Below the pieces are notes generated by a model that was not told the origin of the DNA, did not search any database, and was given only the letters and a program-made list of their open reading frames with translations. 37,093 nt of DNA from Desulfuromonadales bacterium (GTDB lineage: Bacteria; Desulfobacterota; Desulfuromonadia; Desulfuromonadales; Syntrophotaleaceae), in NCBI GenBank assembly GCA_030613545.1, contig JAUWLU010000008.1, positions 1-37,093 on the forward strand, in the 5' to 3' direction. Made by a program: the position numbers and the translations under genes. Within the stretch, counting starts at the first letter, position 1. Every line of letters begins with the position of its first letter. This document shows positions 7,963 to 23,974 of this stretch, one piece after another.

Positions 7963-8001
7963 AGGCGGGCCGGAATACGATAATTCCGGCCCGCCTTTTT
8001 T
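7963..8001 (+). terminator. strong intrinsic terminator after secF
   Basis: A perfect 14-bp stem (7963-7976 pairing with 7983-7996, core GGCGGGCCGGAAT) has a 6-base loop and runs straight into six T residues. It ends only 12 bases before recJ, so recJ needs its own promoter or read-through. Confidence 0.92.
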
Positions 8002-11338: not shown

Positions 11339-11917
11339 CTAAGGTTGGCGCAAGGCCGGTCCGCCCGGCCCGTAGGGGTGGCAGCGGTTGCAGGAGCGTA
11401 CGGCGCTGTCGTGTGGCTGATGGCAGGACTGGCAAAGGGTCATGGCCGAGCGGGCCTTGACCGGCAGCATGGTGGCGTGGGCCAGGCCGCCGTGGCAGGC
11501 AACGCAGGCAATCTGTTTTTCCTGGTGCAGACGATGGTAGGAGGCATGTGCCTGGCCGCTATCCTCTTTCTCCTCTCCTAAGGCTTCGGCGTCGTGGCAT
11601 TTGAAGCAGTTTTCGTTGGGTACCTCGGCGAGAAGAATCGGTCCGCTCTGGCGGCCGCTGAGGAATGCGTAGACATAGCGGGCGCCGGCCAGGTGGGCCT
11701 TTATTTCGCCGGTCAGGCCCGGTTCCGAATGGCAGGAGAGGCAGTTGGTGTAGGCGGCGTGATCGGAGTACTGCCAGGAGACGTAGCGGGTCTCCATGAT
11801 ATGGCAGGAAGCGCAGAAACGCGCTGTCGACGTATAGCCGATCAGGCCGGCAAACAGGGCCGTTGCGGTCAGGGCAAAAAGTGCGGCAGTGATCAGCCAT
11901 TTCGTTCGGCGTGTCAT
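11339..11917 (-). CDS. NapC/NrfH-type membrane-anchored multiheme cytochrome c
   Basis: This gene encodes 192 residues. One N-terminal membrane helix at about residues 8-28 is followed by a periplasmic part with six CxxCH heme sites: CASCH, CLSCH, CFKCH, CVACH, CQSCH and CNRCH. The first is followed by IM (CASCHIM), as in NrfH where a nearby methionine serves the quinol-side heme. The spacing to W-QYSDHA-NCLSCH also fits NapC/NrfH. Such proteins take electrons from membrane quinol and pass them to a periplasmic partner. NrfH has four hemes, so the two extra C-terminal sites are an addition. It begins 22 bases after the eight-heme lipoprotein gene with no clear ribosome site, so it is probably translationally coupled to that likely partner. 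Confidence 0.85.
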   Translation of the reverse strand: MTRRTKWLITAALFALTATALFAGLIGYTSTARFCASCHIMETRYVSWQYSDHAAYTNCLSCHSEPGLTGEIKAHLAGARYVYAFLSGRQSGPILLAEVPNENCFKCHDAEALGEEKEDSGQAHASYHRLHQEKQIACVACHGGLAHATMLPVKARSAMTLCQSCHQPHDSAVRSCNRCHPYGPGGPALRQP

Positions 11918-11939: not shown

Positions 11940-13154
11940 TTATTGGCTCAGCCTGCGGCGGGCCAGGTCGAGCCGCTGTTGCAACTGTTCTGGCGCATGG
12001 TCCCGATGATAGTGGCAGCTGTTGCATGAATTGGGCTGTTTCTTCAGATCGCCGCCGCCAAGCTCCAGGGTGAGCCGCGGCGGAATGAAGCGGAAAGTGT
12101 GGGTCCGCTCGTCGCCCACGGTGGCGCTCTTGCCGGTGTTCGGCATATGGCAGGCGATGCAGTTGCCATGCTGGGGCGCGTCCTCGATAGGGGCATGGCC
12201 GCTGACCGGATCGGTACTGACGTTGGGATGGCAGCCGAGACAGAGGTTGTTGCCGGTCCCCCGGGTGCTGAACCGATTGCTGGTGCTGTGGCTGGTATGA
12301 CAGTCGAGGCAGCTGATCCCGGCCCGGTAGTGGCGTGAGGTCTGCCATTCGGGATACTGCTGACGGTGCTGTTTGACTGCGCCGGAGGGCCACCAGGCTT
12401 TTTTGTTATCGTAACTGGTTACGGTAAACATGCTCGGCACCAGGCGCCGACCGACCTGGTAGCCAATGGGGAAGGGATCTTTGCCGTCCGGCGATTTGCC
12501 GCGGGTATGGCACTGGCCGCAGATGTCGGAGGCCAGATGCCAGGGGAGCTTGGCCGGATTGACGATGGTGTTGGCCCGGGCCAGGCCACGGGCCTTGACG
12601 TGGGTTTCACCGGGGCCGTGGCAGGCCTCGCAGCCGATGCTCAGTTCGGCCCAGGTGTAGTCCTGATGGTTAAAGCCGGTGACGTGGCAGTAGGAGCACT
12701 TTTTCTGCCAGTCGGGTCCCTGGGCGTCGCTGAAATGGTAGGGCGCCCAGAAGTTGTCGGCGATGTTCCACTGGAATTTCTGCACTTCCCAGTCGGCAGT
12801 GATGTAACGCTGCTTCCACAGCACGCCGTGGGTCAGCATGATCCGCTCTTTGCTGAGATCGCCAAGATCCGTAACCTTTACCGTAGCACCGCTGGCATCT
12901 GTGGCGGTGAAGTTCGGCGGGGTCTGCCAGTCGCCGACAATGGCCTTGTCCTGCGGCCCGGAGACCTGCTTGATGACCATGGAGTGGGGGGTGGTCTGCC
13001 AGGTGGCGGCGATACGGTCGTGGCATTTGGCGCAGACCGCCGAACCGACGTAGCCGCCCTCCTTGACCTCGATATCGCCCATGTCGTTGGCGCAACCGCT
13101 GAGCAGCAACGCCAGCCCCATCAGTCCCAAAGCCGTCTTGATCGCCACTTTCAT
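11940..13154 (-). CDS. octaheme c-type cytochrome, lipoprotein
   Basis: This gene encodes 404 residues. A lipoprotein signal sequence ends in LLLSGC, with the lipidated cysteine at residue 21. Eight CxxCH heme sites follow: CAKCH, CSYCH, CEACH, CGQCH, CLDCH, CLGCH, CIACH and CNSCH. The opening YVGSAVCAKCHDRIAATWQ resembles cytochrome c554-type domains. The protein is therefore expected on the periplasmic side, lipid-anchored to the inner or outer membrane. The electron acceptor is unknown. It lacks the CxxCK active-site heme of NrfA, so simple nitrite reductase is not supported. AAAGGGGG lies just before the ATG, and a near-perfect 35-bp palindrome sits directly upstream of that. It is first in a two-gene unit with the NapC/NrfH-type gene. 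Confidence 0.88.
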   Translation of the reverse strand: MKVAIKTALGLMGLALLLSGCANDMGDIEVKEGGYVGSAVCAKCHDRIAATWQTTPHSMVIKQVSGPQDKAIVGDWQTPPNFTATDASGATVKVTDLGDLSKERIMLTHGVLWKQRYITADWEVQKFQWNIADNFWAPYHFSDAQGPDWQKKCSYCHVTGFNHQDYTWAELSIGCEACHGPGETHVKARGLARANTIVNPAKLPWHLASDICGQCHTRGKSPDGKDPFPIGYQVGRRLVPSMFTVTSYDNKKAWWPSGAVKQHRQQYPEWQTSRHYRAGISCLDCHTSHSTSNRFSTRGTGNNLCLGCHPNVSTDPVSGHAPIEDAPQHGNCIACHMPNTGKSATVGDERTHTFRFIPPRLTLELGGGDLKKQPNSCNSCHYHRDHAPEQLQQRLDLARRRLSQ

Positions 13155-13491
13155 TTTTCTGCCCCCTTTTGCAGTTGCGCAGTAACGGATCGTTTCTGCG
13201 CAACTGGTACGTGCCGGACAGGCCCCGGTTCGGTTGCCGAATCGCTAAACGGGCTATAGCAGATGCGGGGTCTCTTTAGAATTTTATAAAGAGGCGATGG
13301 GATGTCAAAGAAATCGAGGGAAAAGAAGCCGCAGGCAAACCGAAAAGGTGGTGTTTGAGAAATGACAGCCAACCTGTCGGGTAGCAGAAAAGCCCGGCAG
13401 CATGCGGGGCAGGGGGCCGGACAGACCTTTTCTTCGGGGCCAGGCGCGCTATAGTTCAGTCAGTGCCCCTCTCATCTAAGGAGGTTCTGTC
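13155..13491. other. gene-free divergent region between cytochrome and thioredoxin-like genes
   Basis: No coding region was found. It holds the 35-bp palindrome at 13172-13206, a 7-bp inverted repeat (CTCTTTA at 13272-13278 with TAAAGAG at 13287-13293) and the AAGGAGG ribosome site of the thioredoxin-like gene near 13478. A TATAGT near 13452 has no convincing -35 box. No clear promoter could be assigned in either direction. Confidence 0.6.
13172..13206. promoter_or_regulatory. 35-bp near-perfect palindrome upstream of octaheme cytochrome
   Basis: Arms 13172-13187 and 13191-13206 (core CAGTTGCGCAG / CTGCGCAACTG) are 16 bp with one mismatch and a 3-base centre. It ends about 18 bases before the cytochrome ATG, abutting the ribosome site. 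It could be a repressor operator or, in the mRNA, a hairpin next to the ribosome site. The TTGCGCA half-site is not one I can assign to a regulator. Confidence 0.65.
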
Positions 13492-14040
13492 ATGGCCCTG
13501 GTTCATTCCGCAGATCTGCCCCTCGGCAGCCCCATGCCCCCGTTTCGTCTCAACGACCCGTCCGGCAAGCCCTTCAGCAGCCAGGAACTGCTGGGAAGCA
13601 CGGGCCTGCTGCTGGTCTTCATCTGCAACCACTGCCCCTATGCCAAAGCCCAGTGGCCGCGTCTGATTCGACTGGCCGAGGAGTTTGCCGGCCGGGGCGT
13701 GGCGACGGTGGCCATTAACGCCAATATTCATCCCAGTTATCCGGCCGATGCCCCGCCACGCATGATTGAGCTTGTTGCCAAACTGGGTATCTCCTTCCCC
13801 TATCTGGTGGACGCCAGCCAGGAGGTGGCCCGGGCCTTCCGCGCCCAGTGCACCCCCGATCCTTATCTGTTTGACCGCCAGGGGCGGCTGGTCTATCACG
13901 GCCGCATCGACGATAACTGGCAGGACGAGGACGCGGTCGGACGGCAGGAGCTGCGGGCCGCCATGGCGGCTCTGGTAGCGGGTGAGGAGCCGCTGAAGGA
14001 GCAGCATCCCTCCATGGGTTGCTCCATCAAGTGGCGATGA
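13492..14040 (+). CDS. thioredoxin-like (AhpC/TSA-Redoxin) family protein
   Basis: This gene encodes 182 residues with no signal peptide, so it is predicted to be cytoplasmic. The redoxin fold starts with a FRLNDPSGKPFS block. The redox motif is CNHC at residues 45-48, in FICNHCPYAKAQWPR, followed by a cis-proline-type region CTPDPYLFDRQGRLVYHGR. This subgroup usually ends, as here, in SMGCSIKW. It probably acts as a thiol oxidoreductase or peroxiredoxin-like protein; the partner is unknown. The ribosome site AAGGAGG is strong. It stands alone and shares a bidirectional terminator with the convergent aminotransferase. Confidence 0.85.
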   Translation: MALVHSADLPLGSPMPPFRLNDPSGKPFSSQELLGSTGLLLVFICNHCPYAKAQWPRLIRLAEEFAGRGVATVAINANIHPSYPADAPPRMIELVAKLGISFPYLVDASQEVARAFRAQCTPDPYLFDRQGRLVYHGRIDDNWQDEDAVGRQELRAAMAALVAGEEPLKEQHPSMGCSIKWR

Positions 14041-14078: not shown

Positions 14079-14112
14079 AAAAAAGCCCGGAGCAGATGCG
14101 CTCCGGGCTTTT
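14079..14112. terminator. bidirectional terminator between convergent genes
   Basis: GCCCGGAGC (14085-14093) pairs with GCTCCGGGC (14100-14108) over a 6-base loop. Six A residues precede the stem (14079-14084) and four T follow (14109-14112), so it can end transcription on both strands. Confidence 0.9.
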
Positions 14113-14133
14113 GTTGTGGTTGGCGGCAGACCC

Positions 14134-23931: not shown

Positions 23932-23974
23932 CGAAAAGGCCCAGTCCTGGATAAGGACGGGGCCTTTTCGTTTT
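23932..23974 (+). terminator. strong intrinsic terminator after the rpsA-to-thioesterase series
   Basis: CGAAAAGGCCC-A-GTCCT pairs with AGGAC-G-GGGCCTTTTCG (23932-23970) with a single internal mismatch and a short loop, followed by TTTT. It is the longest stem in this half of the window. Confidence 0.9.

Follow-up and report, generated by a model that had tools for sequence, protein, structure and literature searches.

A near-perfect palindrome beside the ribosome-binding site of an octaheme cytochrome gene in a Desulfuromonadales bacterium: a putative lineage-specific leader stem-loop

The minus strand of the window, by which we mean the whole 37,093-nucleotide stretch of Desulfuromonadales DNA analysed here, encodes an octaheme c-type cytochrome of 404 aa (11940..13154) with Cytochrome_C554/doubled CXXCH domains, and our count of eight CXXCH motifs in its product agrees with the octaheme gene of the original prediction. 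On the same strand, a second gene (11339..11917) encodes a 192 aa protein with six CXXCH motifs and a NapC/NirT-NrfH-like N-terminus. The ATG of the octaheme gene lies at 13154 and its ribosome-binding site, AAAAGGGGG, can be read from the sequence at 13162..13170, both on the minus strand. One base short of this site stops a near-perfect palindrome (13172-13206) of the predicted minus-strand leader, with 16-nt arms (13172-13187 and 13191-13206) that are complementary at 15 of 16 positions (94%) and a 3-nt centre. Both the palindrome and its position against the ribosome site had been described in the original prediction, and both are confirmed, our own inverted-repeat search recovering the palindrome. 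Further upstream on the minus strand is a sigma-70-like promoter, TTGACA-16-TAAAAT (13281..13308), which matches 11 of the 12 consensus bases; it is the only such promoter in 13000-13600, a region whose shuffled versions yield a mean of 0.1. From the match to the promoter consensus alone, transcription is predicted to start at ~13274. Since this near-consensus promoter is upstream on the same strand, the palindrome would be contained within a predicted 5' leader of ~120 nt; given a start near 13274, the hairpin would therefore span roughly nt 69-103 of the transcript and end 18 nt before the AUG, a distance that is near the edge of 30S subunit coverage. The leader also has a small hairpin, TTCGG-CAA-CCGAA (13229..13241, minus strand), which was recognized in the alignment described below and also appears in predicted folds.

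As RNA, the palindrome is predicted to form an 11-bp stem, a 1x1 mismatch, a 4-bp stem and a 3-nt loop, with a folding energy of -21.7 kcal/mol when taken alone. The 55-nt leader stretch containing it folds at -26.2 kcal/mol, as against a mean of -12.7 (sd 5.6) for 105 crudely called gene starts from the genome sample described below, among which it ranks as the second most stable, behind a T-tailed hairpin before recJ. The stable fold expected of a leader stem-loop is therefore found both in the energy of the hairpin itself and in this rank. The 133-nt leader is likewise more stable than most of its shuffled versions (z -2.0; 8 of 200 as good). In the minimum-energy fold a CUGUCC/GGGCAG helix encloses the hairpin and would touch the ribosome site. 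Nevertheless, occlusion of the ribosome site was rejected, as in each of the three species compared its accessibility is close to that obtained with shuffled leaders: the GGGGG is unpaired with a mean probability of 0.23, where 200 shuffled leaders average 0.21, and the corresponding values are 0.25 against 0.22 in G002 and 0.27 against 0.24 in G003, the two same-genus relatives introduced below. Since the accessibility is ordinary, and falls to 0.18 upon in-silico scrambling of the right arm, the models predict no clear effect on translation and give no sign of a switch built into the leader.

A search for the cytochrome in 58 genomes, including that of the window (G000), gave some match in 48. 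Clear orthologues are present in G002 (87% identical), G003 (88% over residues 1-323) and G013 (75%), with the next match, in G033, at 38%; the G003 gene is split at contig ends but its leader is complete. The same search recovered no cytochrome of this kind in G001 and G004, which belong to the same genus. A pattern-seeded scan of a collection of 84,980 species found three close loci and two distant ones, the close loci being those of Desulfuromonadales bacterium 42485_Bin_1, Pelobacter sp. UBA5610 and Desulfuromonadaceae bacterium SMBSF57, which match G002, G013 and G003 respectively. The leaders of G002 and G003 align to that of G000 with single-base gaps only; the unalignable leader of G013 was excluded from the pair counts. 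The parts best preserved relative to G002 are the promoter region, identical at 18 of 27 positions, the 16-base block with the small hairpin, at 12 of 16, and the block from the Shine-Dalgarno sequence to the ATG, at 21 of 27. Both relatives retain TTGAC and TTTATA in the promoter region, and AAAGGGGGCAG is unchanged in both. In the palindrome itself the left arm is identical to G002 at 10 of 16 positions and the right arm at 5 of 15. Each sister can be scored at 14 of the 15 pairs of the G000 stem and has a standard pair at five (36%), where the random expectation is ~37% (6 of 16 base combinations). One of these five (columns 115/141) has changed on both sides, being UA here and CG there, and this may be counted as a point for the stem. 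The paired percentage of the alignment was attained in 3 of 500 shuffles, as would be expected of a structure derived from G000. The corresponding region of G002 folds at -3.7 kcal/mol as against -22.4 here. G002 and G003 are identical to each other in the palindrome region and the Shine-Dalgarno block, but much of their gene is also nearly identical (51-60 of 60 positions per full 60-base block). Thus, as far as the two alignable leaders tell, the conservation upstream of orthologues by which the original prediction proposed to judge the palindrome is absent (missing in 2 of 2, G002 and G003). Both same-genus orthologues keep the small hairpin at 13229-13241, with its TTCGG..CCGAA stem but a longer loop (CACCCAA), and its presence in both with a differing loop length makes it a better candidate for a conserved element than the palindrome.

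The full arms at their spacing, with up to 3 mismatches allowed in 22 arm bases, occur in a single copy genome-wide, and accordingly a dispersed, REP-like repeat of many copies was rejected. When up to 2 mismatches are allowed, seven places in the genome, its own included, have the 8+8 core at this spacing, as against none for a reversed-pattern control; the other six all lie inside open frames of at least 118 codons, and coding bias is therefore their likely cause. Allowing any spacing of 3-30, the exact core is found at one other place, C204:398, within a MerR-family gene (Pfam MerR_1) at its 3' end, and across 40 genomes, including G000, this coding site is the only one to recur, namely in G001, G002 and G003. 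The 11-base arm alone is found at three other places, each in an open frame. Among the 136 genomes of the order that were searched, four, including G000, have the looser pattern GTTGCGCAG-N5-20-CTGCGCAAC. Its site in G024 is in a 451-codon open frame, that in G013 in a 127-codon open frame, and that in G085 belongs to a longer palindrome close to where an open frame of 151 codons ends, a frame that may or may not be genic; within the open frames covering each site and its flanks of 60 bases, none of these sites was seen to adjoin a cytochrome gene. The segment 13140-13320 had no plasmid match.

We also compared the palindrome with other stems of at least 13 matches and at most 1 mismatch in a sample of 253,951 bases of its own genome, comprising the window and 21 other stretches, for which six contigs were picked for their core matches and the rest by arbitrary number. 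The sample has 25 such stems, counting 13172-13206, where three Markov controls of equal size have 0, 1 and 3. Stems of this class thus exceed chance, yet they are common, at about one per 10 kb, and what is unusual about the palindrome is its placement against the ribosome site. Thirteen of the 25, with 13172-13206 among them, are outside every crude ORF call, and several have terminator-like A/T runs at the stem ends. In 13000-13600 neither strand has a terminator-like tail (a GC stem followed by a T-run), and with no T-run an intrinsic terminator is ruled out as a reading of the palindrome. Three other long near-perfect inverted repeats of the window, at 7963-7996, 14079-14114 and 23932-23970, have T-rich tails or A/T-flanked stems and are probably transcription terminators. 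Separately, the G000 genome has four exact copies of a repeated palindrome, TACTTTCTTTG-N6/7-CAAAGAAAGTA (C127:3937, C149:18170, C322:2895 and C322:28086), with variants in the sample at L049:2583-2616 and L051:11796-11828; GGCCGG is present in the flanks of all three copies that were read. This is a dispersed palindrome family, unlike the palindrome at 13172-13206.

On balance, we lean towards reading the palindrome as a lineage-specific stem-loop that forms in the 5' leader RNA of the octaheme-hexaheme cytochrome pair and acts, if at all, on this one mRNA. An ordinary, species-specific leader structure is the most likely interpretation because two close relatives lack the hairpin and no second copy is found between genes. 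The original prediction had offered two readings, an operator and an mRNA hairpin, of which the latter fits better, since the repeat would lie ~70-100 nt inside the predicted transcript; the former is not supported. Our best reading is that the palindrome would be neither a conserved operator nor a riboswitch, and would at most tune the stability or translation of one mRNA. Transcription would start near 13274 and run through the hairpin, which probably folds constitutively and may then slow decay of this mRNA as a 5' barrier or, alternatively, space the leader from the ribosome site. Equally, it may do nothing, because the two sister leaders presumably work without it. As judged from the models, the leader-hairpin reading is plausible, but it comes with no predicted regulatory effect. 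The literature searches turned up no paper on the palindrome at 13172-13206, which does not prove that there is none.

The main rival to the leader stem-loop is a neutral origin, which we regard as unlikely though still deserving weight: the palindrome would be a transient feature, in which an imperfect inverted repeat was made near-perfect by a template switch during replication that replaced one arm with the reverse complement of the other. The hairpin is possibly neutral, in that its non-conservation would suit a neutral palindrome too. Replication template switching can create a near-perfect stem in a single event, according to the consulted part of PMC8794818, and this leader aligns to those of its sisters with no more than single-base gaps, so that it has received no long insertion. 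The stronger divergence of the right arm from G002 noted above also fits such a switch, but the asymmetry between the arms is not significant (Fisher p = 0.16), and the attempt to establish a template-switch origin failed on this count. Nor does the next orthologue settle the direction of change, its leader, that of G013, being unalignable.

A DNA operator, at which a local transcription factor would form a roadblock downstream of the start site, is improbable. In its favour are the dyad symmetry, the two TGCGCA cores, which are 21 bp apart and thus separated by two helical turns, and the excess of degenerate core matches over the reversed-pattern control. Against it, the other six of these matches are in open frames, as coding bias would have it, the exact match is MerR-family coding sequence shared with three sister genomes, there is only one full copy, and neither alignable orthologous leader keeps the palindrome. 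The operator of a regulon was accordingly rejected for want of non-coding copies, and the proposal of an operator for an unknown regulator finds no support in these comparisons, even if a weak degenerate operator motif may exist elsewhere in the genome. Most operators sit less far downstream than the +69 to +103 predicted for the palindrome. The original prediction had also noted that no FNR/CRP pattern is present, and our reading by eye upholds this, with no FNR, CRP or HcpR consensus half-site seen in 13172-13206. The delta-proteobacterial CRP/FNR-type and HcpR operators have the consensuses TTGTGA-N6-TCACAA and ATTTGACC-NN-GGTCAAAT in the consulted part of PMC545781. The palindrome resembles these operators in being palindromic, but it differs from the consensuses given there, having neither of them, nor the TTGAT-N4-ATCAA of the original prediction, and in being a single full copy inside a predicted transcript.

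Even more doubtful is a switch, be it a transcription attenuator, a riboswitch or a protein-bound translational operator for the cytochrome operon. The position in the leader and the stable structure speak for it, as does the precedent of GEMM-Ib cyclic-GMP-AMP riboswitches before cytochrome genes in Geobacter (consulted part of PMC6456294), which are likewise leader RNAs before multiheme cytochrome genes, in a related group. In contrast to these, the palindrome has no Rfam match at the gathering score, no conservation in the sisters and no terminator. None of 4227 Rfam families reached the gathering score in the window; there were three weak local matches, all far below threshold, of which one fell on the palindrome (MIR839; 14.2 bits against a threshold of 200), and a known riboswitch or RNA family was therefore rejected. 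The missing terminator-like tail, the failure of the fold to be conserved across orthologues and the ordinary accessibility of the ribosome site weigh in the same direction. We give very little credence to the further idea that the stem-loop, beside the ribosome site, is bound by an RNA-binding protein which senses heme, redox state or cytochrome and shuts off the cytochrome pair, in an arrangement that arose after the split from the sister species.

The closest parallels for a leader stem-loop are 5' stabilizers of mRNA. The consulted part of PMC3997798 reports that in B. subtilis long downstream regions can be stabilized by a hairpin located at the 5' end or close to it and that in E. coli a 5' hairpin added to the bla mRNA stabilizes it; papA and B. 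subtilis aprE appear, by title in its references, as further cases of stabilizing stem-loops in the 5'-UTR. The palindrome is similar to these in being a stable leader hairpin upstream of the ribosome site, and dissimilar in having ~68 nt of predicted leader before it and in that any effect on its mRNA is hypothetical. More generally, a striking palindrome at a ribosome site can be missing from sister species that keep the surrounding promoter region and the ribosome site, which cautions against taking palindromes from single genomes for operators. Should strains of the same species reveal a single-step origin of the stem, they would provide a neat bacterial case of template switching giving rise to a leader hairpin. 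In G013 the start of the same gene is preceded (L037; G013:C7, upstream of 2219, minus strand) by another strong inverted repeat, distinct from the palindrome, which could form between CCCCTGTC and GACAGGGG and would overlap the ribosome site.
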